Shown here in pieces: positions 19,713 to 34,995 of a stretch of DNA of 53,909 bases. The notes below the pieces were generated by a model, which saw only the letters and a list, made by a program, of their open reading frames with translations, had not been told where the DNA came from and made no database searches. Source of the DNA: a virus. Position numbers and translations under genes: made by a program. The stretch spans positions 1 to 53,909 of the IMG/VR virus record IMGVR_UViG_3300035070_000789; one strand, given 5' to 3'. Positions within the stretch are counted from its first letter, which is position 1; every line of letters begins with the position of its first letter.

Positions 19713-19720
19713 TATAAATA
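19713..19720 (+). promoter_or_regulatory. Perfect T4 late promoter TATAAATA before halogenase 1
   Basis: TATAAATA lies 30 nt upstream of the ATG, with a CAGGAG Shine-Dalgarno in between. The surrounding 15 nt (19708-19722, AACACTATAAATATT) are identical to 32489-32503 in front of halogenase 4. Nothing like a -35 box is obvious, as expected for late promoters read with a gp55/gp33-type apparatus. Confidence 0.8.
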
Positions 19721-19750
19721 TTTGCGTATACAAATCATCAGGAGATAATA

Positions 19751-21376
19751 ATGCACATTAAAAAAGTTGCAATCATTGGCGGCGGATCATCAGGATGGAT
19801 GACAGCCGCAGCATTAGCAAAACTATGCCCGCATCTTGAAGTAGAATTAGTCGAATCAGAAGATTATGCTACTGTTGGCGTCGGCGAAAGTACGTTAGGA
19901 CATATTAATAGATTTTTAAGATTACTTGGATTAGAAGATAAAGATTGGATGGCTGCGTGTAACGCTACATACAAAAACTCTATTCGCTTTACAAATTTTA
20001 GAGATAACGACAACACAAGTTTTGAATATCCGTTCGGTAGTGGCTATGATTATACTGACGCACATGACGGATTACAAACATGGGGTAAACTATCGTCGTT
20101 GTACCCTGAAGAGTTTACTCCAGAGACGTTTGCAAGAATGTATTGTCCAACTAACACTGCGTTAGCTGAACAAAATAAACAAACTAGAGACGAAGAAGGC
20201 AAACTAAGAAATTATGACTTTACATACGATACTGCTTATCATATGGATGCAACAGCATTTGGACAGTATTTAAAGACTGAAATTTGTATTCCAAACGGGG
20301 TTACACATACTCTTGGAACTGTTCATTCTTATAATCAAGATTCTAGAGGATACTTCACAAGTATCATGTTATCAAACGGTAATGGCGTACAAGCTGATTT
20401 GTTTATTGATTGTACCGGGTTTAAATCTTTATTATTAGAGAAATGGCTCGGCGAACAATTTATCCCATTTACTCCGCATTTGCAGAATGACAAAGCTCTA
20501 GCATGTAGACTTCCTTACACGAATAGAGAAGAACAAATGCACAATGTTACTGACTGTCATGCACTTGGTAACGGTTGGGTATGGAACATTCCGCTATGGC
20601 ATCGCATTGGCACTGGGTATGTTTATTCTAGTAGATTTGTTTCCTTAGAAGGTGCAATGAATGAATTTAGAGCACACCTAGAAGAAGTACATGGTAAAGA
20701 AATTGCTGATGCGGCACAAATGTCACAGATTGACATTAAGCACGGCCGTAGACGTAAAGCCTGGGCTCAGAATGTTGTTGGTATTGGCCTAAGCTACGGA
20801 TTTGTTGAACCTTTAGAATCTACAGGACTATTAACAACACATGAAAACATTATTAAATTAGTTGATGTTTTAAATAGAAGAGACGGATATTGTACACAAG
20901 CTGAACGAGATGGATACAATTATGCTGTCGAATATGACTTACTAGCGTTCCGCGACTTTGTTTCTCAGCACTATGCACTTTCTAGAAGAACAGATACTCC
21001 GTATTGGAGATACGTAACACAAAAGGTTGTTTATCATCCTATTGCGTTTAATGACTTTTTACCTCAGCAAAACAGTTATACTAATCTTCTTGGTGCTATT
21101 AGCGGCGGCAATGTTTATCAAGAAACTCAACAAGGTAATAATTATATTGCAGCTGGCATGGGTGTAAGAAATATTTCAACCAAGGAACTTGTACTTGAAG
21201 AAGTTAATAATCAAGTAGCAAGAGGAGTGCCGGATGCATCTGGAAGACTCGAAGATTCTAGAAGACGTTATCATCAACATCAAGAATGGTTAGCAGACTA
21301 TGTAAGTAAGCTACCTTCGCATTACGAATATTTAAAAGAGAACATCTATGGAGGTGTTGACAACTTTAAGGATTAA
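19751..21376 (+). CDS. Flavin-dependent halogenase (tryptophan-halogenase family), copy 1
   Basis: 541 residues. The N-terminal FAD-binding GGGSSG (residues 10-15) and GVGEST (43-48) are present, with the family's catalytic Lys in CNATYK (K75, place of K79 in PrnA). The WxWxIP signature is intact (W276, W278, I280, P281), and so is FVEPLEST with Glu at 356 (place of PrnA E346). By family knowledge such enzymes use FADH2, O2 and halide to form HOX, which attacks an electron-rich substrate, often an indole or phenol. The substrate here is unknown. The gene has its own perfect late promoter and CAGGAG Shine-Dalgarno. It is closest in layout to halogenase 4 (PFG segment, WHFD/YHMDAT region, LESxGL). 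No flavin reductase is visible in the window. Confidence 0.92.
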   Translation: MHIKKVAIIGGGSSGWMTAAALAKLCPHLEVELVESEDYATVGVGESTLGHINRFLRLLGLEDKDWMAACNATYKNSIRFTNFRDNDNTSFEYPFGSGYDYTDAHDGLQTWGKLSSLYPEEFTPETFARMYCPTNTALAEQNKQTRDEEGKLRNYDFTYDTAYHMDATAFGQYLKTEICIPNGVTHTLGTVHSYNQDSRGYFTSIMLSNGNGVQADLFIDCTGFKSLLLEKWLGEQFIPFTPHLQNDKALACRLPYTNREEQMHNVTDCHALGNGWVWNIPLWHRIGTGYVYSSRFVSLEGAMNEFRAHLEEVHGKEIADAAQMSQIDIKHGRRRKAWAQNVVGIGLSYGFVEPLESTGLLTTHENIIKLVDVLNRRDGYCTQAERDGYNYAVEYDLLAFRDFVSQHYALSRRTDTPYWRYVTQKVVYHPIAFNDFLPQQNSYTNLLGAISGGNVYQETQQGNNYIAAGMGVRNISTKELVLEEVNNQVARGVPDASGRLEDSRRRYHQHQEWLADYVSKLPSHYEYLKENIYGGVDNFKD

Positions 21377-21542
21377 TGATGTTAGTTTTTGTAAATTTTA
21401 TAAAAACATGTCCTTATATTATTGTCGCACTAGTAGTACAGAACTTTGATCAGAAATATCTACTATCTATCCTGATCAGTATACACCGGATACTTTTGTC
21501 AAATTCTGTACTACTGCCCATACTTACACGGTGGTAAAAATA
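21377..21542 (+). other. Non-coding gap with long imperfect inverted repeat
   Basis: The gap holds a 12-bp perfect inverted repeat, AGTAGTACAGAA (21432-21443) with TTCTGTACTACT (21504-21515), extended inward by about 5 bp after one bulged C. Nested inside are GATCAG (21448-21453) and CTGATC (21472-21477). A weak AT-only hairpin (GTTTTTGTA/TATAAAAAC, 21385-21407) lies just after the halogenase stop. A poor sigma70-like pair (TTGTCA 21496-21501, 17 nt, CATACT 21519-21524) overlaps the right arm. It could be a structured leader, a small RNA or a protein-binding site for the oxygenase operon. It is not a tRNA. Confidence 0.55.
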
Positions 21543-22367
21543 ATGTTTAAAGAAAAGCCTTGGATAAGATTTTATTCGTTAGAACCGGGTGTACCAGAAG
21601 TTGTACCAATTATTCCTGCACATAAAGTAAAACGTGAATGGATGCAACGCAACGATCCACCTGATCCTGAAAACGGAAATATGCATACTAAGAATTGTCC
21701 TGGTATTACTAAGCTAGTATCAATGGGATATATCTTACGTGCTCCTGCTGACTTTGAAATTAAAACAGACGGTAGTAAAATAGATTTCATTGCAGGCGAA
21801 GCAATGAGATTTAATACAGAAGGTGGCCCTGGTAGTGAACGTTACGTAGGCTCACACAATCAGCATCAAACAGCTCCTACGTTAGATGACCCTAACAAGT
21901 CACTTAGTGTGGCAGTTAAAATAGATACTCCTTGGAGATTAAAAGCATCAGACGATGTACTACTATTGCAATTGCCTATACCGTATAACAATGAAGCAAG
22001 ATTTACAGCAGCACAAGGTATTTTAGATCCGCGGCATGCACACGTTGTTAATGTTCAATTATACTGGCATGTACTTAACGGAACGACAATTGTTAAAGCA
22101 GGAACGCCGTTGTGTCAATATATTCCAGTACCAAGAAGTTTTGGCATTTCAAATATTGATTTAATATGCGACGATGCTAATGAAGATGACAAGCTATTAG
22201 AAAAAGCATTTAACTACGCTAATAGGAGCGTAGTACATGACGACACACTGAAGTCAAGATTAAAACGAACAAATTCAGTGATGAATAAGTATAAACACAG
22301 GAGAAAAACATTATGGACTACATTACAGAGCTTAATATTGCGACTACTAAAGTTCAAGCGCAACTAG
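21543..22367 (+). CDS. Uncharacterised protein (DUF6065-like) heading the oxygenase operon
   Basis: Start set at ATG 21543, which has GGTGG 8 nt upstream; an in-frame GTG at 21531 is less likely. About 274 residues. The visible pattern is MKxNCPG near residue 50, a beta-rich centre, a PWRLKASDDVLLLQLPIPYN segment, and GTPLCQYIPVPR at about residue 195. This resembles a family (DUF6065, from memory) seen near phage and bacterial tryptophan halogenases and 2OG oxygenases, of unknown biochemical role. No HxD facial triad is clear. The basic C-terminal tail (YKHRRKTLW, LLKFKRN) overlaps the next gene by 55 nt in another frame. Context suggests a partner or scaffold of the modification enzymes. 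Confidence 0.6.
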   Translation: MFKEKPWIRFYSLEPGVPEVVPIIPAHKVKREWMQRNDPPDPENGNMHTKNCPGITKLVSMGYILRAPADFEIKTDGSKIDFIAGEAMRFNTEGGPGSERYVGSHNQHQTAPTLDDPNKSLSVAVKIDTPWRLKASDDVLLLQLPIPYNNEARFTAAQGILDPRHAHVVNVQLYWHVLNGTTIVKAGTPLCQYIPVPRSFGISNIDLICDDANEDDKLLEKAFNYANRSVVHDDTLKSRLKRTNSVMNKYKHRRKTLWTTLQSLILRLLKFKRN

Positions 22368-22558
22368 ACGAAAAGTTAGCACGATTAAAAGAATTGGAAA
22401 CAGAATTTAGCGATACTAAGTTAAATCCATACGGAATTACAACAATTGACTTTTCAGAGCGACAAGAGCTGCTAGAAGATACTACCAAAATGCAAGGTGT
22501 TATTCTAGGCTTAGAGTTAGCTAAAGAAACGTATGAAACGTCACTTGCCCCCGCTTAA
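22313..22558 (+). CDS. Small coiled-coil protein (81 aa)
   Basis: ATG 22313 follows a good Shine-Dalgarno (ACAGGAG, 9 nt upstream) inside the 3' end of the preceding gene. The protein is charged and helical with a heptad-like N-terminal half (TKVQAQLDEKLARLKELETE), suggesting a coiled coil, and has no Cys or membrane segment. The next gene starts 26 nt before its stop. It could be an adaptor or a substrate of the neighbouring enzymes; nothing in the sequence proves either. Confidence 0.6.
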   Translation: MDYITELNIATTKVQAQLDEKLARLKELETEFSDTKLNPYGITTIDFSERQELLEDTTKMQGVILGLELAKETYETSLAPA

Positions 22559-23129
22559 TGGGACACTAGCAGATCCCTTCCCAAGGCTAATATGGAAATT
22601 TAATTACGAATTTCCATATAGCACACTTTTGCCTTTAATTGAAGAAGTAAAACAAAAGACACCAGAAAATTCTTTATTAGAGCAAGGACAGGCATTTTCA
22701 ACAGCCTCTCAACAAAGCTATCCTCCACACATGTGGGATGTACTTGAAGACTTTAGAGAGTGGTTAATTCAACCTATCGACTTTATGTGGAAAGAGTTTG
22801 AATTTAGGGCTAATAGCGATGCTACTGTTTTAAATTCTTGGATCAACACGCACAAAAAAACAGGCGTAACGCTTGAGCATAATCATAATCAAGCATTGTT
22901 TGTAGTTACATCATATTTAAATCTTCCAAAAGATAGTGGATATATTGAGTTTAGAGACCCGTTAGAATATCATAAAGGTAATACGCCTATGGATCCTGAA
23001 GAGACTTTATGGAAATCCATTCCGTGCAAAACAAATGATGTTTTAATTTTTCCGGCTTGGTTAAAGCATAGGACACAGCCGAACAATACAGATGAAGAAC
23101 GAATAGTAATGACGTGGAATGTTGGATAA
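22533..23129 (+). CDS. Putative 2OG-Fe(II) oxygenase, TIGR02466/PF13759-like (oxygenase 1)
   Basis: 198 residues. The C-terminal half has the double-stranded beta-helix pattern: SWINTHKKTGVTLEHNHN (W103, H116, H118), a central strand TSYLNLPKDSG with EFRDP, then DVLIFPAWLKH (H179) and DEER (R190) for 2-oxoglutarate. The HxH at the first metal position, instead of HxD, is usual in TIGR02466-type proteins. The start ATG lies inside the preceding gene, so translation is coupled. Substrate unknown. This is the first of eleven consecutive oxygenase-like genes. Confidence 0.75.
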   Translation: MKRHLPPLNGTLADPFPRLIWKFNYEFPYSTLLPLIEEVKQKTPENSLLEQGQAFSTASQQSYPPHMWDVLEDFREWLIQPIDFMWKEFEFRANSDATVLNSWINTHKKTGVTLEHNHNQALFVVTSYLNLPKDSGYIEFRDPLEYHKGNTPMDPEETLWKSIPCKTNDVLIFPAWLKHRTQPNNTDEERIVMTWNVG

Positions 23130-23944
23130 TGGAATTTAGATTTTGCAACCCTGATGCTAATACATTTGATCAAGAAATTAAATTAAAGCTATTAGAAGAT
23201 TGGAAAGTAGAATACGTTTCGCTTACCGATAGTACAGGATATTGGATTGCTGACAACCCGTTTCAAGCAGACGGATTTGAAAAATATAAAGAACTTGTAT
23301 CTACCTTTCCGGTGTCTATTAATAATAATGCAGATACATGCACTGATCCAAATCCGTTTGACACAATACATTTACCGCAGTGGATGACGCAAGGTGTTAT
23401 TAATTTAATTATTAATTTTTATAAAAATAATATCGAACCGTATTCTGCAAATGAAGAAGTACACGAATGGGGGAATTTGTATTGGAAAAATAAAAGTAAG
23501 CCCATTGATGCATTTAGAATGGCTCACGTAGATTATCCGCATGGTATAGTTGGAAATTTGTGGTTTTCAGATCACGCTCTAGGTACTACAGGTACAAACT
23601 TATACGAGTACAAAGGACAAGTTCACGAGTTATTTGGAAAAAATGATGGCAACTTTGCTAGTTTTTATGACTTCCAAGTTGACGAATTACATCCTATGTA
23701 TAAGAGGTATAAAGAACTTTCTACAACTAAACGTTTATCTAAGTGGACTAATTGGACTGACGACGAAGCAGCTGAGTTTGGGTTTGTTAAAGTAGGAATG
23801 GTTCCTGCAGAATATTCTAAATTAACAATGTATAAATCTAGTACCCCGCACTGTCCGTATATCGAAGATAGTGTAGATTTTAGATGGAGTCACACATTTG
23901 CCTTTCAACACAGTATAATGACAGCACAGGATTTTTTTAAATGA
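23129..23944 (+). CDS. Putative Fe(II)/2OG oxygenase, DUF6445-like (oxygenase 2)
   Basis: Start chosen at ATG 23129, overlapping the upstream stop as TAATG; an ATG 15 nt earlier is in frame but embedded in the previous gene. 271 residues. Candidate facial triad H133-x-D135 (MAHVDYPHGIVGNLWFSDH) and H241 (STPHCPYI), with R252 as candidate 2OG-binding Arg. The GTNLYEYKG strand is like DUF6445-type dioxygenases. The roughly 100-residue spacing between HxD and the last His is longer than in the neighbours because of a helical insert rich in K and W. Function and substrate unknown. Confidence 0.6.
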   Translation: MEFRFCNPDANTFDQEIKLKLLEDWKVEYVSLTDSTGYWIADNPFQADGFEKYKELVSTFPVSINNNADTCTDPNPFDTIHLPQWMTQGVINLIINFYKNNIEPYSANEEVHEWGNLYWKNKSKPIDAFRMAHVDYPHGIVGNLWFSDHALGTTGTNLYEYKGQVHELFGKNDGNFASFYDFQVDELHPMYKRYKELSTTKRLSKWTNWTDDEAAEFGFVKVGMVPAEYSKLTMYKSSTPHCPYIEDSVDFRWSHTFAFQHSIMTAQDFFK

Positions 23945-24534
23945 ATTTAGATTTTTATTTTCCTACACCGATTTGGTGGGATGACACAAATATAAACCTT
24001 GAACCTATAAGAACGCTATGTCAACGACTTCGCGACGAAGACCCTAATGGCAGACAAATTAGTAATAATGGAGGATGGCAGTCGGCAGACTTTAAAGGCG
24101 GTGATCATAATGAACTTAGCACATTAATAGATTATATTTTGGGTGCTTCTGAACGCTGCTTAGGCGACTACGGTTACGCATCAGGTTACAAATTTAAAAT
24201 GCTCAATTTGTGGTTCAATGTTAACGGCAAAGGTCACTCAAATCAAATTCATACTCACGCTGGCTCTTTTTTATCAGGCACGTTCTACGTAACTGTTCCA
24301 AATAATGCAAGCGACATTGTTTTCTATAAAAATACAAGCGAGGATCATATCATCGCATCAGCAGCACACATCGACACACATACTGCTATTAGTGGAGCAA
24401 CCTGCCGATATCCACCTAGAGATGGAAGAATGGTGTTGTTCCCTTCGTACCTACCGCACGGAGTATTGCCTAGTCAAACCGAAGAAGAAAGAGTGTCACT
24501 AGCTTTTAATTTGGAGATTGTAGATGTATCATGA
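23941..24534 (+). CDS. Putative 2OG-Fe(II) oxygenase, TIGR02466/PF13759-like (oxygenase 3)
   Basis: 197 residues, start overlapping the upstream stop by 4 nt (ATGA). The TIGR02466 hallmarks are clear: N-terminal FPTPIWW, LWFNVNGKGHSNQIHTH (H104, H106), SGTFYV, DGRMVLFPSYLPHGV (H173) and EEERVSLAFNL (R184). This is one of the best family matches of the array. It is likely a small non-haem iron hydroxylase whose substrate could be protein, peptide or small molecule. Confidence 0.85.
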   Translation: MNLDFYFPTPIWWDDTNINLEPIRTLCQRLRDEDPNGRQISNNGGWQSADFKGGDHNELSTLIDYILGASERCLGDYGYASGYKFKMLNLWFNVNGKGHSNQIHTHAGSFLSGTFYVTVPNNASDIVFYKNTSEDHIIASAAHIDTHTAISGATCRYPPRDGRMVLFPSYLPHGVLPSQTEEERVSLAFNLEIVDVS

Positions 24535-25249
24535 CTTAGCAGAAAAGATCTTTACTAAAGTTGATTTAGAAAATGATGACAAGCCATGTTATTTTAAAAA
24601 CTTTATTAGTAATCCCGAACAGCTAGTAACGTGGAATGATGTAGAAGATTGCATGAATAACACAAACTTTTACGAGTTTGAACTAATTGACGAACATTGT
24701 AATAAGATTGTAATACCAGAACATCAAAAGGCGTGGAACTACTATAAGCCTGTACAAGATAAGCAATTTATTTTTGACAAAGTAAATAACGGCGCCGGGT
24801 TAGTAATTACTAATTACGGATTTCATAATGATTATACAAATGAATTACTAAGTCGATTTGAAGAAATGTTTGATGTTCATGCAGCTATTCATGTATATGC
24901 AGGACTAAAATCACACAGTTCTTTTTCAGTACATGACGACTATCCGTCAAATTTTATTATTCAAGTAGAAGGCACAACACACTGGAAAGTATTTGAAAAT
25001 AGGATTTCAAGCCTATTTGCAACTGGACGAATGAATGGAAGAGTAAATAATAATGCACTACGTGCAGCAATTGATGTTACCCTTGAACCAGGTGATGCAT
25101 TGTACATTCCGTCAAGAGCATATCATATTGCAGAGCCAACTAATACTAGACTATCTATTAGTATTCCGTGTTGGCAAAGATTAAAAACTGATGCACCAAC
25201 TAATGCAGTCGATAGAAACAAGTATAGGATTAATAAAAATGGCAATTGA
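24524..25249 (+). CDS. JmjC/cupin-4-like oxygenase (oxygenase 4)
   Basis: 241 residues, start 11 nt inside the previous gene. JmjC-type features: SVHDDYPSNFIIQVEGTTHW (H137-x-D139, then the strand before a conserved W154), and a C-terminal EPGDALYIPSRAYHIAEP (H201) with R209. This order (HxD, W after the strand, PGDxLYIPxxxxH) matches ribosomal-oxygenase/cupin-4 proteins (ROXA/YcfD-like), which hydroxylate Arg or His of ribosomal proteins. It is shorter than those and lacks the usual C-terminal dimer domain. A protein substrate is thus plausible, but this is inference. Confidence 0.75.
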   Translation: MYHDLAEKIFTKVDLENDDKPCYFKNFISNPEQLVTWNDVEDCMNNTNFYEFELIDEHCNKIVIPEHQKAWNYYKPVQDKQFIFDKVNNGAGLVITNYGFHNDYTNELLSRFEEMFDVHAAIHVYAGLKSHSSFSVHDDYPSNFIIQVEGTTHWKVFENRISSLFATGRMNGRVNNNALRAAIDVTLEPGDALYIPSRAYHIAEPTNTRLSISIPCWQRLKTDAPTNAVDRNKYRINKNGN

Positions 25250-25817
25250 ATTACAAGAATTTTCTAACATTGTTGACAGCGAATATCAGAAAAAATTATA
25301 CAATGCTGTTACTGATGTTACATTTCCGTGGCACTATTTAGAAGATACAACTTATGAAAGAGCGACTAAGCCTGGAGCAAATACCCCGGGCTTTACACAT
25401 TTGTTGTTTAATAATAACGGAACACAAAGTGATTACTTTGAAATGTTTAAACCAGTATTTGAAAACGGATGCGCAGCAGCAGGACTAAAACCAATTGGAG
25501 TAATTCGTTTTAGGTTAGGGTTTTTATTAAAAACTAGATACAATTTACCGAGTCAGCCTTATGTTTATAATCAGCCTCATGTTGATTGTGATTTTGATCA
25601 CTACACTGCATTGTACTACTTAAATAAAAGTGATGGCGATACTGTAATCTTTGATCAAACTGAAGCTTCTGAAAAATATATTCCACGTGTTGATGTTACT
25701 CCAGAAATGGGAAAGTTTGCAGTATTTAATGGTAGACATTATCATGCTAGTACGTGTCCTAAGATGCTACCTAGTAGAATTGTATTAACAATGAACTTTA
25801 CTGCGGAGAAGATATAA
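25239..25817 (+). CDS. Prolyl-4-hydroxylase-like 2OG oxygenase (oxygenase 5)
   Basis: Start chosen at ATG 25239 after AGGATTAATAAAA; a longer frame to 25191 has no ribosome site. 192 residues. HxD in NQPHVDCDFDHY (H114, D116), YYLNKSDGDTVIF, then MGKFAVFNGRHYHAS (H169) and SRIVLTMNF (R180). The YYxNxxDGDTxIF strand and the TFPWHYLED...GFTHLLF N-terminus make it a paralogue of the genes at 27152 and 50867. Probably a hydroxylase of unknown substrate. Confidence 0.8.
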   Translation: MAIELQEFSNIVDSEYQKKLYNAVTDVTFPWHYLEDTTYERATKPGANTPGFTHLLFNNNGTQSDYFEMFKPVFENGCAAAGLKPIGVIRFRLGFLLKTRYNLPSQPYVYNQPHVDCDFDHYTALYYLNKSDGDTVIFDQTEASEKYIPRVDVTPEMGKFAVFNGRHYHASTCPKMLPSRIVLTMNFTAEKI

Positions 25818-26452
25818 TGCCTGATCGCGGTAAAGGTACTCCTTGGATCCCTACTACAGTTGTAGATAACTTCTTTGAAACTCCGGACTTAATACGTAAA
25901 ATGGCGTTAGAGTTAGAGTACTACAAAGGAGAGCGAGGCACTTGGCCGGGATTAAGGTCACCAATGCTGCAAGAAATTAGTATGGAGTTATACGAAGTAC
26001 TAGAATGCAAATTGTTAGAACATCTTCCAATGTTTAAAGGGTTTGATGAAATTCAATCAACCTTTCAGATCATTGACGAAACATGGGGCAGAGGTTGGGT
26101 CCATGACGACAATCCTATTCATGATGTTGCAGGTATTATATACCTAACTCCGGAATGTCCGCTACACTCTGGTACAACATTTTATAAAGATGTTGAAGAA
26201 TTTAACGGAGAGTTTTATACAGAGATGTTTCAACAGGATGTTACAAACGAAAATGCCGAAGAACGTAAGAAGTTTTGGAAATATAGAGAAGAGCAACGTG
26301 CAACTTTTCCTCCTGAAGCTGAAGTAGACTTCTTATATAATAGATGTGTAATGTTTGATCCTCGTACTTGGCATAGTGCAAATGACTTCTTTGGCAAGAC
26401 TAAAGAAGACGCTAGAATGACATTAGTATTTTTTGGGAACGCAATCAGATGA
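25817..26452 (+). CDS. DUF6445-like 2OG oxygenase (oxygenase 6)
   Basis: 211 residues, start overlapping the upstream stop by one base. N-terminal VVDNFFETPDLIRKMAL and WPGLRSP are typical of DUF6445-type proteins. H96-x-D98 (GWVHDDNP), GIIYLTPE, SGTTFYK, then MFDPRTWHSAN (H186) and R200. The helix between the two metal motifs contains KYREEQRATFPP, which is also in the next gene. It forms a tandem paralogous pair with 26449-27150. Substrate unknown. Confidence 0.75.
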   Translation: MPDRGKGTPWIPTTVVDNFFETPDLIRKMALELEYYKGERGTWPGLRSPMLQEISMELYEVLECKLLEHLPMFKGFDEIQSTFQIIDETWGRGWVHDDNPIHDVAGIIYLTPECPLHSGTTFYKDVEEFNGEFYTEMFQQDVTNENAEERKKFWKYREEQRATFPPEAEVDFLYNRCVMFDPRTWHSANDFFGKTKEDARMTLVFFGNAIR

Positions 26453-27150
26453 GAGAAGTTAATTTAGAAAGTATTTTGGATAATTCTAGAAACAGTGTAG
26501 ACTTAATTCAAAACCGTGATTTAAAAAATCGAAGAAAACATAAATTTTTACCTACAAAAATCATCGATAACTTTTTTGATGTTCCGTCTCTTTGGAGGAC
26601 ATTGGCACTAAGTCAAGAATATAAATTAGCTTCAGATAGCACATATCCGGGATCACGAACACAATTTCTTAATCAAATTGATCAAGGAGCTTTTGAAGAC
26701 TTTGCAAAACGACTTCTAGTACACTTACCAATGTTTAAAGGGTTTGAACAGCTATGGGCTAACTTTCATTTAATTGATGAAACTTACGGCAACGGCTGGG
26801 TTCACGACGATGATCCGACTCTTAGTGTTTCTGGATTAATTTATTTAAATCCAGAACCCGCTCCGAACAGCGGTACAACAATTTATAAAGATCAAATAGC
26901 AGTTGATGCAGATCGATATAGTGATTTCTTTCATAAGGATGTGTTACATGCAAATGAAGATGAACGTGCTGCACTAGCTAGATACCGAGAAGAGCAACGT
27001 GCAACATTTAGGCCTACTATGACTATTGAAAATGTTTATAATAGATGTATTTTATTTGATCCAAAAGTATGGCATGCTCCAAATAATTTCTTTGGCAAGA
27101 CTAAAGAAGATTCGAGATTAACATTAGTATTTTTTGCAAAAGGCGGATAA
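26449..27150 (+). CDS. DUF6445-like 2OG oxygenase, paralogue of upstream gene (oxygenase 7)
   Basis: 233 residues, ATGA overlap with the upstream gene. It repeats that gene's plan with about 20 extra N-terminal residues: IIDNFFDVPSLWRTLAL, YPGSRTQF, H119-x-D121 (GWVHDDDP), LIYLNPE, SGTTIYKD, RYREEQRATFRP, FDPKVWHAP (H209), R223 and FFGKTKED. Clear local duplication followed by divergence. Both copies keep all metal and 2OG ligands, so both are probably active. Confidence 0.75.
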   Translation: MREVNLESILDNSRNSVDLIQNRDLKNRRKHKFLPTKIIDNFFDVPSLWRTLALSQEYKLASDSTYPGSRTQFLNQIDQGAFEDFAKRLLVHLPMFKGFEQLWANFHLIDETYGNGWVHDDDPTLSVSGLIYLNPEPAPNSGTTIYKDQIAVDADRYSDFFHKDVLHANEDERAALARYREEQRATFRPTMTIENVYNRCILFDPKVWHAPNNFFGKTKEDSRLTLVFFAKGG

Positions 27151-27151
27151 C

Positions 27152-27757
27152 ATGGAACTAGATAATGAAATTTATGTAATTGATGATGTTATACCTGTAA
27201 CATATCAAAATCATATTTTAGACAAAGTGACTAGTTTGCAGTTTCCGTGGTATTTTAATACAAACTTAGTTTCAAATGAAGAGCAACTTGCTAAGGACGA
27301 AGAAAACATACAAGGGTTTAATCATTTTCTGTATGAAGAACAAAAAGCAGTTTCTCCGTTTTTTGAATCAATATATCCGTTATATTTGTCTATTGCAGAC
27401 AAGTCTCCTGTACAGTTTAATATGTTAGAACGTATGCGCTTTAACTTAACACATCAAAACAAGTACTCTAAATTAGACTGGCATATGCCGCATATTGACA
27501 GTTTGTATCCTCATTATATTGCTATCTATTATGTCAACGATAGCGACGGAGATACTTTTATTTTTAATGAATCAAATCCTACGTTTGAAAAAGACTTTGA
27601 CGAAATGCAAAAAAATAACTTTACTGTAAGACAACGTGTTACGCCTAAAAAAGGAAGGGTAGTTATTTTTCCTGGGCACACTTATCATGCAAGTTCATTT
27701 GCTAGAGAAAGTAAATTTAGGTGCGTTGTAAATATTAATTTAGGATTATTGTTTTGA
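27152..27757 (+). CDS. Prolyl-4-hydroxylase-like 2OG oxygenase (oxygenase 8)
   Basis: Start chosen at ATG 27152, one base after the previous stop; the upstream in-frame ATG at 27134 lies inside that gene. 201 residues. H114-x-D116 (WHMPHIDSLYPHY), YYVNDSDGDTFIF, GRVVIFPGHTYHAS (H179), R190. Paralogue of the genes at 25239 and 50867 (shared FPWYF...GFNHFLY N-terminus and DGDTxIF strand). Confidence 0.8.
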   Translation: MELDNEIYVIDDVIPVTYQNHILDKVTSLQFPWYFNTNLVSNEEQLAKDEENIQGFNHFLYEEQKAVSPFFESIYPLYLSIADKSPVQFNMLERMRFNLTHQNKYSKLDWHMPHIDSLYPHYIAIYYVNDSDGDTFIFNESNPTFEKDFDEMQKNNFTVRQRVTPKKGRVVIFPGHTYHASSFARESKFRCVVNINLGLLF

Positions 27758-28281
27758 GCGATTGGGTATTACATAAGTCTCAAAATGTAATAGATAATCA
27801 TGAATATATGGTGCGTGATTTACATAGAGTGCATGGACATTTTTTAAATGCGTTTCCGAATAAAGACTCAACTTGGGCATATGGAATGTACAATGTATTT
27901 GCTGCGACATCACCGTCGCCTGTATTCTACGAGTTGTTTAAAGAATTATCAACCCACATAAGAACTTTTGCAGGACACGACAAACCTTTATGGATGCAGT
28001 CGTGGATAAATTATCATATGCCTACTCAAGTGTTAGACTGGCACGGACACGATTGGACGTTTCATGGATATATTAGTATTGATCCAAAAGAGACAAAAAC
28101 AATGTTTGAAGGATACGAAATAAAAAATGAAATTGGAAACATTTATATCGGTCCAGGTTATCGTCAGCATAAAGTAGAAGTAATAGAAGAATTTAACACG
28201 CCAAGGATGACATTAGGCTTTGATGTACACGACGAGCCTGCCTTGCCCTTTGAACAATTTAGTTTGGTGCCAATACTATGA
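27754..28281 (+). CDS. Putative cupin-fold/2OG oxygenase with TTG start (oxygenase 9)
   Basis: 175 residues. The start is TTG at 27754, overlapping the upstream TGA, with AGGAT 7-8 nt before it. Pattern: SWINYHMPTQVLDWHGHDW (H97, H99, D100), GYISIDP, GNIYIGPGYRQHKV (H139), RMTLGFDV (R151). The acidic third-position ligand is replaced or shifted (HGHD), as in the TIGR02466-type neighbours. It is weaker than the others but has the right order and spacing. Confidence 0.6.
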   Translation: MSDWVLHKSQNVIDNHEYMVRDLHRVHGHFLNAFPNKDSTWAYGMYNVFAATSPSPVFYELFKELSTHIRTFAGHDKPLWMQSWINYHMPTQVLDWHGHDWTFHGYISIDPKETKTMFEGYEIKNEIGNIYIGPGYRQHKVEVIEEFNTPRMTLGFDVHDEPALPFEQFSLVPIL

Positions 28282-28919
28282 GTGAAGTTACAGTTATAAA
28301 AAATGCAGTAAGTTTAGATATATGCGATTTTATATCAGCAGAGTTTCGTATGATGGATAGCTGTATAGATATCATGAATCCCGATGCTGGTAAAGAACAA
28401 GGCATGGCAGAAAGTTTTTCTGTTTATTCACCGTTGTTTATTGAAACACTATCTTTATTAATACAGCCTCAAGTTGAAGCAGCCGTAAATAAAACTTTAT
28501 ATCCATCGTATTCGTACGGAAGAATATACAGGACAGGAGCAGTACTTCATCCTCATTATGATCGCAGAAGTTCAGAGTACACTGTGTCAGTAACGTTAGA
28601 TAAAGATGATGTTGATTGGTTACTGTGTGTAAAGCATGAAGACGATACTATTGAAAGAGTTTTATTAGAAAAGGGCGATATGTTAATATATCCCGGAAAT
28701 AAACTGCCGCACTGGCGCAAAGGTGCGTTTAAAGGCAATGAACAAATACAAGCATTTATACAATACGTAGATGCTAACGGCACAAACGCAGACTTAAAAT
28801 GGGACGGACGTCCTGCAATGGGAATGCCATGGGACAGTGTCTCAGAAAACGTGCATATAGAATTAGAACAGATGATGATGAATAGTAAACAAATTATAAC
28901 TAAGGATCATTTAGATTGA
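28278..28919 (+). CDS. Phage-type prolyl-4-hydroxylase-like oxygenase (oxygenase 10)
   Basis: 213 residues, ATGA overlap. YGRIYRTGAVLHPHYDRRSS gives H93-x-D95. VSVTLDKDD, then LEKGDMLIYPGNKLPHWR (H145) and QAFIQYVD follow. The R-x-Y-xxGxxLxxHxDRxxCE-like pattern is common in P4H-like proteins of T4-like marine phages and differs from the paralogue trio above. The C-terminal 45 residues are helical and Met-rich. The 2OG-binding basic residue after the last His is not certain (K152 is a candidate). Confidence 0.7.
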   Translation: MSEVTVIKNAVSLDICDFISAEFRMMDSCIDIMNPDAGKEQGMAESFSVYSPLFIETLSLLIQPQVEAAVNKTLYPSYSYGRIYRTGAVLHPHYDRRSSEYTVSVTLDKDDVDWLLCVKHEDDTIERVLLEKGDMLIYPGNKLPHWRKGAFKGNEQIQAFIQYVDANGTNADLKWDGRPAMGMPWDSVSENVHIELEQMMMNSKQIITKDHLD

Positions 28920-29467
28920 AGAAGATTAAACTAACAGTTCCTGCCATCATTACTAAGTTTGAAGAGCACACATTAATAAAAGACTCTGTGTTAAAATTAA
29001 TTAGAGAACAAGATAGTGCAGAAAGAATTTACGAAGAAGGTACTAGTACTTTAGATATAACTCGTTGCGATTACAAAGAGTCGTACGATCCACGTCCTTG
29101 GACAGATGTAATGCAGCCTCATTTATTAAAAGCACTAACATCTATATACAGTGAATTGGGTTATGCATCTTATAGCATACATAATATTTGGTTTCAACAA
29201 TATAATACAGGTAGCACACACGGATGGCATGTACACACTAAATGTCAATGGACTAATGTGTATTATTTGGACTTACCTGACGGCACTCCAAAAACAGAAC
29301 TAATTGATCCGTGGAGTCGTGAAGTTATTACAATGGATGTTCAAGAAGGCGATATACTTACATTTCCTAGTTTTGTTATACATAGAGCACCTGTAAACAA
29401 AACAGCAACACCAAAAACTATCATTAGTTTCAATAGCGATACTGAGATTGACGGTGCTACGTACTAA
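28916..29467 (+). CDS. Putative 2OG-Fe(II) oxygenase, TIGR02466-like, TTG start (oxygenase 11)
   Basis: 183 residues. The start is TTG at 28916 (TTGA overlap with the previous stop) with AAGGA 10 nt upstream. SIHNIWFQQYNTGSTHGWHVH (split after 20: H105, H107 are the metal pair), VYYLDLPDG, GDILTFPSFVIHRAP (H156) and KTIISFNSD (K167 in place of Arg). This is the last gene of the plus-strand array; its 3' end overlaps the convergent halogenase 2 by 11 nt. The W-rich strand around 104-112 may contact substrate. Confidence 0.7.
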   Translation: MKKIKLTVPAIITKFEEHTLIKDSVLKLIREQDSAERIYEEGTSTLDITRCDYKESYDPRPWTDVMQPHLLKALTSIYSELGYASYSIHNIWFQQYNTGSTHGWHVHTKCQWTNVYYLDLPDGTPKTELIDPWSREVITMDVQEGDILTFPSFVIHRAPVNKTATPKTIISFNSDTEIDGATY

Positions 29468-30965
29468 TTAAATCTTTAATATCTCTCATTAACATAGTTT
29501 CTGTAAGTTCTGTCAAATGACGCAACGCTTCTCTATGTGGAAAATATTGAATACTTGATGTAACAAATTCTCGTTCTCTAAGTTGTTCTTCGATAAACGG
29601 AATAGTATGAGTTAAGTTATCGTAGAACCATTCATTAAGTGTTTTATAATCGTACAGGCGTAATCCATGCATAACTTGCAACCAGTTTAACTCTTTAAAC
29701 ATTAAAAACTTATCTTGAAATGCGTATTGCCCCGGCAATGTTTTTTTAAAGTTATCTAAATGTGTTTTGTTAAATTCTGATTTAGTAATGCCGCCGTTGT
29801 TGCACCACTTCCAAAATTCACTATCTTTTCTTTCAGTAAAGTAATGTAGTTGCACAAAGTCAATAATATTTTGTGCAACTATTTTAAATGTATCGTTGTA
29901 TGTGCTTCGTGCTAGTGTATTTTTAGAACTATAATTTGGCAAACTTATTAAGAATCCAAACATCTGTTGAATAGTAAATCCAATACTAGTTGCTTCAAGC
30001 GGTTCAACAAACATTCCTGCTAAGCCTACATTAAGACAATTTTTAACCCATAGCTCGTCTAAGTAACCTGCTTCAAATTTAATTTTTTTAGCAACTGTAA
30101 TTTCATACGGAAATTGTGATTTAAATTCTGCTTCGGCATCTTCGTCACTAATAAATTTGTCGCAGTAAACATACCCGTTACCAAATCTATCTTGCGTAGG
30201 GATACGCCACATCCATCCTGAACTTAATGCTCTAGCTTCGGTATGTGAAGGAATTTCTTCTTCGTATGGCGTAGGTGCTGCTAATGCAGAATTCATAGGC
30301 AATTGATCTGCACAACTGTTCCATTTAACATTAAGTTTAGAACTAATTACTCGTCGAAAGCCACTACTGTCAATAAAGAAATCTGCGGTGTAAAAATCTT
30401 TCTCACCAATTAACTTGTGTACGTTGCCCTGACTATCTAGCGTAACGTCATTAATTTTATCGTCAATAACTGTAATATTTCGTTCGCTGCACAGCTTATG
30501 CATGAATACATTTAATTTGTTAGTATCGAAATGGTATTGGTGTACCGAATAGTGCAACGGCTGTGCGTGTAATGATTTACGTCCAGTCGGCAATACTGTA
30601 TCAACAGGATCTACATTATCTGCAATTAACTTAATCATGCCTGTGTATAGTCCGACTTTTTGATCTTGATGAGACAAGTCTTCAAATAAGTTGTGCCAAT
30701 ATTCTGTGCCATCGCCGTGCCAGTTAGTAAATCTAATTCCTGTCTTATATGTAGCAGCAGTTTCTCTAACTAATGTAGGAACATCAACGTCAATGTGCTG
30801 CATAAATCCTGCCCAGTGTTCTGTACTGCCTTCCCCCACTCCGACAATTCCGTATTCACTTGATTCTACTACTGTAATACTTAATTTTGGATATGATGAT
30901 CTTGCCATTAACGCTGCAATAAGCCCAGCTGTGCCGCCGCCTAGTATGCATAGTGATTTAATCAT
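29457..30965 (-). CDS. Flavin-dependent halogenase (tryptophan-halogenase family), copy 2
   Basis: 502 residues on the minus strand. GGGTAG (9-14), GVGEGSTEHW (42-51), the catalytic Lys in AATYKTGIRF (K74), WMWRIP (W251, W253, I255, P256) and FVEPLEATS (E324) are all intact. The GVGEGSTEHW form and the NWHGDGTxY segment are shared with copy 3 and differ from copies 1 and 4 (GVGEST, NF). The two minus-strand genes are therefore a tandem duplication. The start overlaps the copy-3 stop by 4 nt (ATGA on the minus strand). Substrate unknown. Confidence 0.92.
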   Translation of the reverse strand: MIKSLCILGGGTAGLIAALMARSSYPKLSITVVESSEYGIVGVGEGSTEHWAGFMQHIDVDVPTLVRETAATYKTGIRFTNWHGDGTEYWHNLFEDLSHQDQKVGLYTGMIKLIADNVDPVDTVLPTGRKSLHAQPLHYSVHQYHFDTNKLNVFMHKLCSERNITVIDDKINDVTLDSQGNVHKLIGEKDFYTADFFIDSSGFRRVISSKLNVKWNSCADQLPMNSALAAPTPYEEEIPSHTEARALSSGWMWRIPTQDRFGNGYVYCDKFISDEDAEAEFKSQFPYEITVAKKIKFEAGYLDELWVKNCLNVGLAGMFVEPLEATSIGFTIQQMFGFLISLPNYSSKNTLARSTYNDTFKIVAQNIIDFVQLHYFTERKDSEFWKWCNNGGITKSEFNKTHLDNFKKTLPGQYAFQDKFLMFKELNWLQVMHGLRLYDYKTLNEWFYDNLTHTIPFIEEQLREREFVTSSIQYFPHREALRHLTELTETMLMRDIKDLIST

Positions 30966-32455
30966 AGTTGTACCTTTAGTTCGTTGTTAATAATATTAAT
31001 TGCATCCCTGCAAGTAAACCAATAATCTGCTGTTGGTTCGTTAGGCAAATAACTTAATTCCTCTGCATCTAACTTACTATAAAATTGTTTACATCGTCTG
31101 TTATATAATTCTTTTATTGAGTCAACATCAAACATACGTAATCCGTGCATAACTTGAATCCAATTTAAGCAATCGTATATCATATAGTTATCTGCTGCGC
31201 CGTCTTCGGGCAAAAGTAGTTGATTTACAAAATTAGTTTTAAAATTTTCTAAGTTGTTCTTAATAAATTCTGTTCTAGGTAATTCATTTTTAACCCATCT
31301 CCAAAACTCTGTATCTTCTCGTTGTGTGTAGTAGTGTAACTGAATAAAGTCTAAAATATTATGCATCATATTATCTACTACTTCATTATACTTATCGGGG
31401 GATGCAGTGTCTTCACGTGTCCAGTTCCATAATGCAGTTGCTAATAATCTGCTTTGTTGAATAGTAGTAGAAATACTGCTGGCTTCTAATGGCTCTACAA
31501 AGTTACTACTAAGTCCGATAGATACTACATTTTTAATCCACGCCTTATTAACATGTCCTGATTTATATTTTATTTTACGACCTACTTTTAATGGAAAGTC
31601 AAAGTATTGTTGAACTTCTATTAATGCTTCTTCTTCGGTAATAAATCTGTCATCATATACATAACCGTTACCAAAGCGTTCTTGTACAGGCGCTCGCCAC
31701 ATCCATCCTGCATTCATACAACGTGCTAGTGTATACGGAGGAAGTTCTTCTTGGTAAGGAGTTTGAAAAGCAATGACGCTATTTAATGGAAGATAATGCG
31801 ACCAATCAACCCATCCTGCTCCTACGTTAGATGCAATAACACGATTAAATCCACTACTGTCAATAAAGAAGTCAGCGAAGTGTACATTACCGTTAGTGTC
31901 TACAATTGATTCTACAAAGCCTTCATTATCTACATTAGTATTTACGATATCAGCCTCGATAATATTAATACCGGCTTCGATAGATTTTTTAATTAAAAAT
32001 GCATTTAATTTTTCACTATCAAAGTGGAACTGGAATACGTTCTCAAACGGTTCGGCAACATATCCCTCCATTGGCAAATTCCAATTTAGATCTTGAGTAC
32101 TAGTACCGTTGGCAATTAATCCCATCATCTGATGAGCAACACCGGTAAGCGGATCTTGATGTGTAAAAGCAGTTGGGAGACTATGAAAATAACTAGTACC
32201 ATCACCGTGCCAGTTTTCAAATTTTAATCCCATTTTAAAAGTTGCGCCGCACTCTTTAACAAGCTCAACAAAACTAATTCCTACTGTTTTAGCAAAGTAC
32301 ATCCAGTGTTCTGTACTGCCTTCGCCTACTCCAATTGTGCCAATCTTACTCGACTTAATAATAGTAAACTTGACATCTGGTACAGATGTTTTGAGATATA
32401 ATGCAGACATTAATCCTGCATTGCCGCCACCTAAAACTGTTAACGATTTAATCAT
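30962..32455 (-). CDS. Flavin-dependent halogenase (tryptophan-halogenase family), copy 3
   Basis: Start chosen at the ATG ending at 32455 (MIKSLTVLGGGNAG), with GAGAGG just upstream; a frame extension of four codons is less likely. 497 residues. GGGNAG (9-14), GVGEGSTEHW, K74 in ATFKMGLKF, WMWRAP (W251, W253, Ala at 255 where the family usually has Ile, P256), FVEPLEASS (E324). Catalytic Lys and Glu are kept, so an active halogenase is expected. The WxWxAP change could affect the monooxygenase-suppressing role proposed for that motif. First gene of a two-gene minus-strand operon. Confidence 0.9.
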   Translation of the reverse strand: MIKSLTVLGGGNAGLMSALYLKTSVPDVKFTIIKSSKIGTIGVGEGSTEHWMYFAKTVGISFVELVKECGATFKMGLKFENWHGDGTSYFHSLPTAFTHQDPLTGVAHQMMGLIANGTSTQDLNWNLPMEGYVAEPFENVFQFHFDSEKLNAFLIKKSIEAGINIIEADIVNTNVDNEGFVESIVDTNGNVHFADFFIDSSGFNRVIASNVGAGWVDWSHYLPLNSVIAFQTPYQEELPPYTLARCMNAGWMWRAPVQERFGNGYVYDDRFITEEEALIEVQQYFDFPLKVGRKIKYKSGHVNKAWIKNVVSIGLSSNFVEPLEASSISTTIQQSRLLATALWNWTREDTASPDKYNEVVDNMMHNILDFIQLHYYTQREDTEFWRWVKNELPRTEFIKNNLENFKTNFVNQLLLPEDGAADNYMIYDCLNWIQVMHGLRMFDVDSIKELYNRRCKQFYSKLDAEELSYLPNEPTADYWFTCRDAINIINNELKVQL

Positions 32456-32481
32456 ACTGCCTCTCAATTATGCTATGCAAG

Positions 32482-32489
32482 TATTTACA
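32482..32489 (-). promoter_or_regulatory. Possible late promoter TGTAAATA for halogenases 3 and 2 (minus strand)
   Basis: The reverse complement of 32482-32489 reads TGTAAATA followed by CTTGCATAGC, 26 nt before the halogenase 3 start. The bases after the octamer (CTTGCA) match those after the gp19 promoter octamer. It is one base off the commoner octamers, so only tentative. Confidence 0.4.
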
Positions 32490-32493
32490 ACAC

Positions 32494-32501
32494 TATAAAT
32501 A
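32494..32501 (+). promoter_or_regulatory. Perfect T4 late promoter TATAAATA before halogenase 4
   Basis: TATAAATA lies 20 nt upstream of ATG 32522. It is embedded in AACACTATAAATATT (32489-32503), identical to 19708-19722 before halogenase 1. A TTGGAG follows as a possible ribosome site, though at an unusual distance (about 12 nt). Confidence 0.8.
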
Positions 32502-32521
32502 TTATTGGAGTATAACTGAGT

Positions 32522-34066
32522 ATGAAATTTAAAGATATTGTAATTGTTGGTGGCGGTAGTGCAGGTTGGATGACAGCAGCTACCATGGCCAAAGCATTTC
32601 CAAATAATACCATTACGATTGTCGAATCGCCGACAAAACCCGTAGTAGGAGTAGGCGAAAGCACCACGCAATTAATGCGCCGATGGCAAAAATACTTAGA
32701 AATACCTGACATTGATTTTATTACAAAATGCAATGCTACTAATAAACTGAGTATTCGATTTGAAAACTTTCATAAAGATGACAAAGTAGGATTTCATTAT
32801 CCGTTTGGAAGATTAGATCAAAGATTCTTCAGTGTAGCAGAATGGTTTCAACATCAATATCTTACTAAGGTACCTTTTGAAAATCTAGTCAACGACATGT
32901 CACCTATATCACAATGTTTGGATTCTAACAAAGTTCCTGTTACGCCTTTTGGTGATGGAGGAGTAATAGGAAACATTTGGTCGTTAGAAAAAGATGCGGC
33001 CTGGCATTTTGACACTCATAAATTTTACGCTTATTTGCGTGACGAATATTGTTTGCCTAAGGGCGTAATACATATAGTTACAGATGTGAACGGAGCGCAA
33101 ACTGATGAAAACGGATACATTACAAGTTTAGATACAGATCAAGGATCAATTACCGGCGACTTATTTTTTGATTGCACTGGATTTAAACGTGCATTGATTG
33201 AAGGTGTATTAGAAGAACCGTGGGGCGAGTTCAATAATAAAACTTATACTGACTGTGCTTGGGCAGCAGCACGGCCGTATAAAGATAAAGAAAAAGAATT
33301 AAGACTTTATACTAATTCAGTTGCACTAGGGTACGGATGGGTATGGGAAATACCAACTTGGGAGCGTATCGGTACTGGATATAATTATGCAAGCAAGTAC
33401 ACCACTAAAGAACAAGCATTACAAGAGTTTAAAGATTATTTAGGCCCAGTTGCTGATGAAATGGAATTTAAGCACATACACATGCGCAATGGCATGAGCG
33501 AACGACTTTGGGTCAAAAACTGTATAAGTATCGGACTTGCTGGTGCATTTATTGAACCGTTAGAATCAAATGGATTAATGAGCGTACATGAATTTTTATT
33601 GAACTTTGTAAACATTGCAGAAGGCAAAGATGCACTAAACAATTTTGACGCACATACATTTAATAACGTATGTCGTGAACAGTTTTTATATTTTGCAGAT
33701 TTTATTACATTGCATTACGCTATGACAAATAGAGACGATACACAGTATTGGCGCGACATACAAATGCAAGAGTTTAACGATAGTGATTTGTTAAAAGAAA
33801 TTTACGAACTTCGAGGATCTCAATTCTTCAATATAGAAGATAAACTAAAGTTTGAAACATTAGGTGCTAATATTTACATGTTAGCTGGACATAAAATAAA
33901 TCCGTATACTAGTTTTAAACATAGTAATATGAAATTTTGGAATGTAGACTTCGACGACATGGTTAAGGATTTACAAACTGTTATTAATAATAACAACTTA
34001 GATAAAGAAAAAATTACTGCTAGGTTTCCGACTAGTTTAGAATATTATAGTCAGTTTCACAAATGA
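32522..34066 (+). CDS. Flavin-dependent halogenase (tryptophan-halogenase family), copy 4
   Basis: 514 residues. GGGSAG (10-15), GVGEST (43-48), CNATNKLSIRF (K75 as catalytic Lys; the residue before it is Asn where others have Tyr or Phe), WHFDTHKF near 161-168, WVWEIP (W273, W275, I277, P278), FIEPLESNG (E348). All catalytic positions are intact. In plan it resembles copy 1 and not the divergent neighbour copy 3. The next gene overlaps it by 4 nt, so a halogenase-oxygenase pair is translated together. Confidence 0.92.
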   Translation: MKFKDIVIVGGGSAGWMTAATMAKAFPNNTITIVESPTKPVVGVGESTTQLMRRWQKYLEIPDIDFITKCNATNKLSIRFENFHKDDKVGFHYPFGRLDQRFFSVAEWFQHQYLTKVPFENLVNDMSPISQCLDSNKVPVTPFGDGGVIGNIWSLEKDAAWHFDTHKFYAYLRDEYCLPKGVIHIVTDVNGAQTDENGYITSLDTDQGSITGDLFFDCTGFKRALIEGVLEEPWGEFNNKTYTDCAWAAARPYKDKEKELRLYTNSVALGYGWVWEIPTWERIGTGYNYASKYTTKEQALQEFKDYLGPVADEMEFKHIHMRNGMSERLWVKNCISIGLAGAFIEPLESNGLMSVHEFLLNFVNIAEGKDALNNFDAHTFNNVCREQFLYFADFITLHYAMTNRDDTQYWRDIQMQEFNDSDLLKEIYELRGSQFFNIEDKLKFETLGANIYMLAGHKINPYTSFKHSNMKFWNVDFDDMVKDLQTVINNNNLDKEKITARFPTSLEYYSQFHK

Positions 34067-34608
34067 ACATAACTCCGCTATTTCCTAGTTTTCTAGCCAG
34101 CGACGAACCTAAAGTCGATAATAATATAATTGCAACATACTGTAACAGCTTAGTAGGTGAAAGTGTAACAGTTGACCCGTTTGTTAATGAACTTTCTGAT
34201 TTAACTGAATGGATGGTATCTAGAGCAAATGGCTTTAAAGAATTACAAGGACTTCATAGTCATTTAAAAGTTAATCTTAATGAATGTTGGGTTAATATAT
34301 TAAACAAACAATCGTTTCATATAAATCACCCACATGCACATGCAGACAATTGGGTTAGTTTTGTATACTATGTAACTGCCAATGAAGATAGCGGTAATAT
34401 TATTTTTATGTCACCGCATCAAAATGTTGAGTTAACTATTCCTAGAAGTTATGTTAATAATGGAAACTTGCATAACTCTCCTAGATGGTCTGTTACTCCG
34501 TTTAATGGGTTAGTAATTGCATTTCCTTCTTGGCTCACCCATTATGTCGAACAAAACCAAAGTAGCGAGCCAAGAATATCTATTGCTTATAATTTTACGT
34601 TGTCTTAA
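34063..34608 (+). CDS. Putative 2OG-Fe(II) oxygenase, TIGR02466/PF13759-like (oxygenase 12)
   Basis: 181 residues, ATGA overlap with halogenase 4. N-terminal PLFPSFL, then ECWVNILNKQSFHINHPHAH (H89, H91, H93), VYYVTANEDSGNIIF, LVIAFPSWLTHYV (H160) and PRISIAYNF (R171). It is a full set for the TIGR02466 family. The direct coupling to halogenase 4 is the clearest sign in the window that halogenation and hydroxylation act on one pathway or one substrate. The 3' end overlaps the convergent cupin gene by 4 nt. Confidence 0.85.
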   Translation: MNITPLFPSFLASDEPKVDNNIIATYCNSLVGESVTVDPFVNELSDLTEWMVSRANGFKELQGLHSHLKVNLNECWVNILNKQSFHINHPHAHADNWVSFVYYVTANEDSGNIIFMSPHQNVELTIPRSYVNNGNLHNSPRWSVTPFNGLVIAFPSWLTHYVEQNQSSEPRISIAYNFTLS

Positions 34609-34988: not shown

Positions 34989-34995
34989 TTTATCC

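Follow-up and report, generated by a model that had tools for sequence, protein, structure and literature searches.

A phage halogenase-oxygenase operon linked to adhesin genes that may encode its substrate

We analysed a 53,909-nucleotide stretch of DNA from a marine phage (IMG/VR record IMGVR_UViG_3300035070_000789, positions 1 to 53,909; hereafter the window), in which an island at positions 19,713-34,608 carries four genes for flavin-dependent halogenases and twelve for oxygenase-like proteins. Gene order, gene overlaps and co-occurrence across distant phages strongly support a coordinated, multi-step modification system encoded by the phage. A preliminary description of the sequence had proposed a multi-step pathway and left its target open among proteins, peptides, lipids and small molecules. 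That proposal is partly supported, and genomic linkage now points to upstream adhesins, or the small Trp-rich protein p1787, as the candidate target. Phage halogenases and 2-oxoglutarate (2OG) oxygenases have long been listed as unrelated auxiliary genes, with guesses that include antibiotics, DNA repair and 2OG balance. Judged from its genes and their arrangement, the island is no chance accumulation of auxiliary functions. Moreover, the conserved cassette ties enzymes of the type of VirX1, a known biocatalyst, to one class of adhesin, a connection that can be tested in cultured phages.

Four genes in the window matched PF04820 with E values of 1e-95 to 1e-107 over almost the entire profile, and all four retain the GxGxxG motif for flavin adenine dinucleotide (FAD), the catalytic-lysine motif, WxWx(I/A)P and EPLE. 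These matches bear out the earlier claim of four full-length halogenases with intact motifs, from which FAD binding and halogenation are predicted. HAL1 (19751-21376) and HAL4 (32522-34066) lie on the plus strand, and HAL2 (29457-30965) and HAL3 (30962-32467) on the minus strand. VirX1 is an iodinating enzyme from cyanophage Syn10 (PDB 6qgm). HAL1 is similar to VirX1 over its full length (E 1e-191, 642 bits) and falls in a clade that includes the syn9 and S-CREM1 copies; HAL4, which is related to VirX1, belongs to a sister clade, and HAL2 and HAL3 form a separate lineage. On this sequence comparison HAL1 alone among the four is the VirX1 ortholog, and the operon is therefore taken as the native locus of VirX1, whose natural gene cluster was left blank in a 2021 review (PMC8407142).

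The count of twelve oxygenase-like genes also held when Pfam and PHROG profiles were combined with motifs: eight were identified by profile, three DUF6445-type genes by metal-ligand motif or family match, and one by motif only. Hidden Markov model searches matched PF13759 four times, JmjC_2/Cupin_8 once and DUF6445 twice, and the others were matched through PHROG. All twelve are on the plus strand. The 2OG-FeII_Oxy_5 (PF13759) genes are OX1 (22533-23129), OX2 (23941-24534), OX3 (28916-29467), which has few relatives, and OX4 (34063-34608). They are accompanied by the JmjC_2/Cupin_8 oxygenase JMJ (24524-25249), by the oxygenase-like p274a (25191-25817) and p274b (27134-27757) of phrog_274 and p2696 (27754-28281) of phrog_2696, by the DUF6445 genes D6445a (25817-26452) and D6445b (26449-27150), by the DUF6445-like D6445c (23114-23944), which matched only the related phrog_1644, and by p2954 (28278-28919; phrog_2954). 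In family alignments of 6-72 sequences each, HxD..H..R is conserved in D6445a, D6445c, JMJ, p274a and p274b, and HxH..H..R, with His in place of the canonical Asp, in OX2, OX4 and p2696. For OX1 and OX3, an HxH..H pattern was read from the sequences in the window. The D6445b alignment mixes paralogs and does not resolve a metal motif, and p2954 has HxD..H and lacks the usual 2OG-binding Arg.

Alignment of the family profiles with hhalign interlinked OX1, OX2, p274a and p274b at 81-100% and joined p2696 to OX1 and OX2 at 88-90% and JMJ to the same pair at 28-77%. OX4 was also tied to the group of OX1, OX2, p274 and p2696. Links outside their own group were weak for DUF6445 (at most 53%) and p2954 (at most 24%). 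Membership in the Fe(II)/2OG family is supported by Pfam for OX1-4 and JMJ, and by PHROG cross-matches and hhalign (81-93% to OX1 and OX2) for p274a, p274b and p2696. Searches of PDB profiles with p274a, p2954 and p2696 returned nothing. Because hhalign and motifs (for p2954, the motif only) point to oxygenase-like proteins, the PHROG labels "DNA endonuclease V" for phrog_274, "ferrochelatase" for phrog_2954 and "minor coat protein" for phrog_1644 look misleading.

Two further genes complete the core of the operon: p7084 (21531-22367, plus strand), which serves as its marker, and s22313 (22313-22558, plus strand), whose family alignment shows a conserved motif around NPYGxTxIDF. From p7084 to OX3 (21531-29467) each neighbouring pair of genes overlaps, by 1-59 bases, and a gap of 154 bases separates HAL1 from p7084. 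An alignment of p7084 identified 294 encoding stretches in IMG/VR, and we fetched the best 80 and annotated them with profiles built from the set; these loci are the closest matches, many of them related, and no random sample. The core gene order recurs in all 80, with HAL1 directly before p7084 in every one. Adhesin genes followed by p1787 lie directly upstream of the halogenase gene or genes in 74 of the 74 loci that extend far enough, two of which have one oxygenase gene in between. Typically, the genes are arranged as fibre, g14113, g14450, two or three adhesins, p1787, HAL1, p7084, s22313, OX1, D6445c, OX2, JMJ, p274a, D6445a, D6445b, p274b, p2696 and p2954, often followed by HAL3 and HAL2 on the opposite strand. 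In variant loci HAL4 stands beside HAL1. Two loci (L007 and L010) are rearranged, with HAL2, HAL2, OX3, OX2, HAL4 and D6445c ahead of an inverted core block, and L007 ends with two HAL1 genes, for five halogenases.

Cultured Synechococcus and Prochlorococcus phages share a shorter version of this order. We found p7084 in 14 cyanophage records (Syn10, two of syn9, S-CREM1, two of P-TIM40, five of S-RIM44, Sf-FR1, Sf-FP1 and Sf-CH3) and, weakly, in one archaeal virus; a halogenase gene neighbours it in the cyanophages examined (one record per phage). The succession adhesin, p1787, halogenase is present in the isolates syn9, Syn10, S-CREM1, P-TIM40, S-RIM44, Sf-FR1, Sf-FP1, P-RSM6, S-SZBM1 and S-WAM1, and in the last three a HAL1-type halogenase is followed by oxygenases without p7084. 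By this comparison of gene content, the minimal unit in common is adhesin, p1787 and halogenase with some oxygenases. At the Syn10 VirX1 locus and in syn9 (gp38-gp54), genes from the adhesin to p2954 are ordered almost as in the window, and HAL1 is 55% identical to the syn9 copy. The window differs from both in its jumbo-phage backbone, in having four halogenases rather than two, in the position of p2696, and in carrying the second-lineage halogenases HAL2 and HAL3 on the opposite strand.

S-CREM1 (open reading frames 67-80) likewise encodes adhesin, p1787, HAL1, p7084, s22313 and nine oxygenases in an order similar to that of the window, with a single halogenase. The S-CREM1 paper counted ten 2OG oxygenases in the genome, called the halogenase PrnA and regarded each gene as an auxiliary metabolic gene in its own right. 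Mass spectrometry of its virions identified 14 proteins, comprising four structural proteins, nine whose function is not known and one unmatched. Because the halogenase and several oxygenases were annotated by name in S-CREM1, these data weakly suggest that they are not virion parts.

The preliminary description had called the phage T4-like, a label that proved loose. Its terminase is nearest to PA5oct-like Pseudomonas jumbo phages (54% identity) and Sinorhizobium phage Phosso (48%), indicating a jumbo-phage lineage, and is 61-74% identical to terminases of IMG/VR virus contigs of 114-278 kb that have four or five halogenases each. All five of the jumbo-lineage contigs checked (114-278 kb) lack psbA, a gene that syn9 does have. 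Terminase affinity and the missing psbA in these relatives both place the window outside the Kyanoviridae T4-like cyanophages. Stop codons that seemed to interrupt relatives' terminases were dropped from consideration; in L219 and L220 the stop coincides with the beginning of the aligned region, and L221 has none. The window terminase is only 32-33% identical to those of the related cyanophages S-RIM44 and the Sf phages, which we used for this comparison since the syn9 and S-CREM1 terminases lie outside the loci fetched. By contrast, over the aligned parts the window adhesins are 57-76% identical to those of syn9 and 64-70% to those of S-CREM1, HAL1 is 55-58% identical, and most oxygenases are 37-54% identical, so that the adhesins rank with the best-conserved components. 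Because the cassette is 37-76% identical to syn9 and S-CREM1 versus 32-33% for the terminase against S-RIM44 and the Sf phages, we read the cassette, adhesins included, as exchanged between phage families. A near-identity search among phages matched nothing. A second IMG/VR contig (L008/L024) is collinear with the window at 99% identity and holds the entire island, and so the island is no assembly artefact.

Upstream of HAL1 the window encodes three Gly/His-rich adhesins, ADH1 (16241-17092), ADH2 (17115-17969) and ADH3 (17999-18847), followed by p1787 (phrog_1787; 18849-19385) between the last adhesin and the halogenase, all on the plus strand. A profile match (phrog_863 for ADH1 and ADH2) together with a Gly-rich tip assigns the adhesins to the Gly-rich phage adhesin class; they are also Tyr-rich. 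The adhesin model was poor (predicted local distance difference test (pLDDT) score 59), and its best structural match was the cyanophage Pam3 fibre (E 0.003). The C-terminal ~185 residues of ADH3 are unusually conserved: mean pairwise identity is 0.72 in this domain versus 0.48 in the N-terminal 100 residues, and eight of the 14 His positions and six of the eight Tyr positions reach at least 90% conservation, with conserved Asn as well. A DNA scan of IMG/VR with the adhesin motif HPQGGHF yielded 75 contigs, of which 54 have the operon, 19 do not extend far enough to judge and the other two are without any adhesin match. Among 50,697 phage records, p1787 matched 20 and two adhesin queries matched 4 and 15, the latter searches being limited by the low-complexity filter of BLAST; every matching record is a halogenase carrier.

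From this genomic linkage we infer a substrate, an activity in the cell, a timing and a benefit, and we put at roughly even odds the proposal that these enzymes halogenate and hydroxylate the adhesin or p1787 in the late stage of assembly. Expression of the adhesins, of p1787 and of the operon with its overlapping genes would coincide, late in infection. VirX1-type halogenases would add halogen to exposed aromatic residues (Tyr, Trp and possibly His), and the JmjC, PF13759, DUF6445 and phrog_274 oxygenases would add hydroxyls to the Gly/His-rich adhesin tip, or to p1787, at side chains such as His, Asn, Arg or Pro, ahead of incorporation into the tail fibre. In such a scheme p7084, with its dUTPase-like model, and s22313 might act as scaffold or adaptor parts. 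Such modification would endow the receptor-binding tip, whose own sequence is near-constant, with chemistry outside the genetic code. More tentatively, we suggest that halogenation and multi-site hydroxylation chemically diversify this tip, that the cassette moves between phage families with its substrate, and that the adhesin or p1787 is the natural substrate of VirX1. If true, this would provide phages with a new means of altering host recognition and offer a source of protein-modifying enzymes.

An adhesin or p1787 substrate is the most economical choice because it explains the linkage, the lack of recognised scaffold-making genes, the exchange as a unit, and the VirX1 active site, which is large, open and able to take bulky substrates (PMC8407142). 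We recognised no scaffold-building, activating or export genes and no obvious precursor peptide in the operon. The lack of psbA in the five jumbo-lineage contigs makes it less likely that the substrate is peculiar to photosynthetic hosts. By analogy, some support may also come from bacterial relatives of HAL2, which on plasmids adjoin TonB-dependent receptor genes in three of the four loci read (four loci only, no survey), once with DUF6445. Like the cassette, the locus of TonB receptor, halogenase and DUF6445 places modifying enzymes beside the gene for a surface binding protein, whereas it is bacterial, has a distinct halogenase clade and lies in a glycan-use context. The plasmid loci span L215:3711-9176, L216:3746-8407 and L214:1-8398; that of Catenovulum adds DUF6445, and Niveispirillum has four halogenases in a row.

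Several points weigh against adhesin or p1787 modification. A tail-fibre hotspot could carry adhesins and enzymes together with no substrate relation, and an inherited neighbourhood may yield part of the pattern. When the residue make-up of the adhesin was set against oxygenase gene number (n = 9; 20 residue types), His gave a rho of 0.64 with p 0.065, and other residues equalled or exceeded it. In other phages halogenases sit elsewhere, among recombination genes in S-B64 and among sugar genes in S-SSM7, and one bacterial relative of HAL2 lies between sugar-hydrolase genes, a better fit to small molecules. Few flavin halogenases are known with a demonstrated protein or peptide substrate.

Free tryptophan or other small aromatics are the substrates of most characterised flavin halogenases, and the operon might instead make or tailor a small molecule during infection, such as a halogenated, hydroxylated amino acid or a host-derived metabolite serving as antibiotic, signal or protectant. 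In vitro, VirX1 acts on many small aromatics (PMC8407142), antibiotic protection has been proposed for phage halogenases (PMC2984593, PMC9964418), and a halogenated secondary metabolite for S-SSM6a (PMC7824862). We nevertheless consider a small-molecule product less likely, if the leading rival: it would leave the constant linkage to adhesins and p1787 unexplained, the genes expected to make, activate or export a scaffold are the ones we did not recognise, and the cassette occurs in phages with probably different hosts. PrnA, RebH and PyrH share the PF04820 family and motifs with the island enzymes; they belong to natural-product pathways and act on free tryptophan, whereas no such pathway genes were recognised in the island. 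Modification of host proteins or the translation machinery to favour infection is a slim prospect. JMJ (at 24524) matches JmjC_2 (PF08007), the family to which bacterial ribosomal oxygenases belong, and ribosomal proteins could be its target; a dozen enzymes would however need many host targets, and again the adhesin and p1787 linkage would go unexplained.

We give equally little weight to decoration of glycans or glycoconjugates, whether on the host envelope or on the virion. The S-SSM7 halogenase does stand amid heptose, carbamoyltransferase and sugar-epimerase genes immediately before the neck genes, capsular polysaccharide decoration has been proposed for the S-SSM6a cluster (PMC7824862), and bacterial relatives sit in glycan-use loci, but flavin halogenases require electron-rich, usually aromatic targets and the operon is without sugar genes. 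Least probable, by a little, is that there is no common pathway and that a tail-fibre hotspot gathered auxiliary genes with separate jobs in 2OG balance, DNA repair or stress, their order being an inherited neighbourhood. The region ahead of the neck genes is variable, and 2OG oxygenases are common in cyanophages, where published work connects them with DNA repair and with levels of 2OG (PMC3037559, PMC9146016). Against this, phages whose core genes are distant from one another maintain the order at 37-76% identity, the genes overlap, and p7084 and HAL1 co-occur in 100% of the 80 loci.

Published work describes halogenases in phages, single phages with several 2OG oxygenases, and one different cluster of halogenase, oxygenase and carbamoyltransferase (PMC3037559, PMC9964418, PMC9146016, PMC7824862). 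That cluster, from S-SSM6a and S-SSM7, resembles the island in having a halogenase, 2OG oxygenases and cupin proteins near neck genes (PMC7824862), and differs in its carbamoyltransferases, heptose and sugar genes, its lack of the order adhesin, p1787, HAL1, p7084, and its distant halogenase (27%). In S-SSM7 (L212) the carbamoyltransferase, heptose, halogenase, oxygenase and cupin genes directly precede the neck genes. A limited search, covering literature outside subscription, found no paper that treats the cassette as a unit or ties it to adhesins, and a search of the same literature on halogenation or hydroxylation of adhesins found none.

The AlphaFold model of p7084 (pLDDT 76) resembles dUTPase and dCTP deaminase in Foldseek (E 3.6e-4, probability 1.00), a likeness at the level of fold only, with a query template-modelling score of just 0.2-0.36; it also resembles uncharacterised phage proteins, and p7084 has no Pfam match. 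This model, together with hhalign, ruled out p7084 as a thirteenth oxygenase. The gene is almost confined to phages, with three matches in 84,980 bacterial and archaeal species (one genome each). One is on a 188-kb contig of a Nonlabens assembly (NZ_RMVE01000006.1; L104) that matches cyanophage P-TIM40 at 98% identity across 20.9 kb and is likely phage DNA. Weakly p7084-like proteins occur in Halorubrum virus HRTV-2 (L021:4752-5624, near a thymidylate synthase gene) and on the Halospeciosus flavus chromosome (L106). We set s22313 aside as a precursor of a ribosomally synthesized and post-translationally modified peptide, since it is charged and helical-looking, its middle motif is constant and a core region is not evident.

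Scans of the window for promoters and terminators gave no excess over shuffled sequence, and scans for Rfam families and tRNA genes detected none. After the island, on the minus strand, come a small cupin-like protein (34605-35003; phrog_7851, labelled cysteine dioxygenase) and a NUDIX hydrolase (34996-35427). Upstream, a giant protein of 4018 residues (2041-14097, plus strand) lies in the tail-fibre region; its neighbours match tail-fibre PHROGs, and relatives occupy the same position upstream of adhesins. Two proteins amid structural genes (47660-49219 and 51394-53178) have endolysin-type matches.

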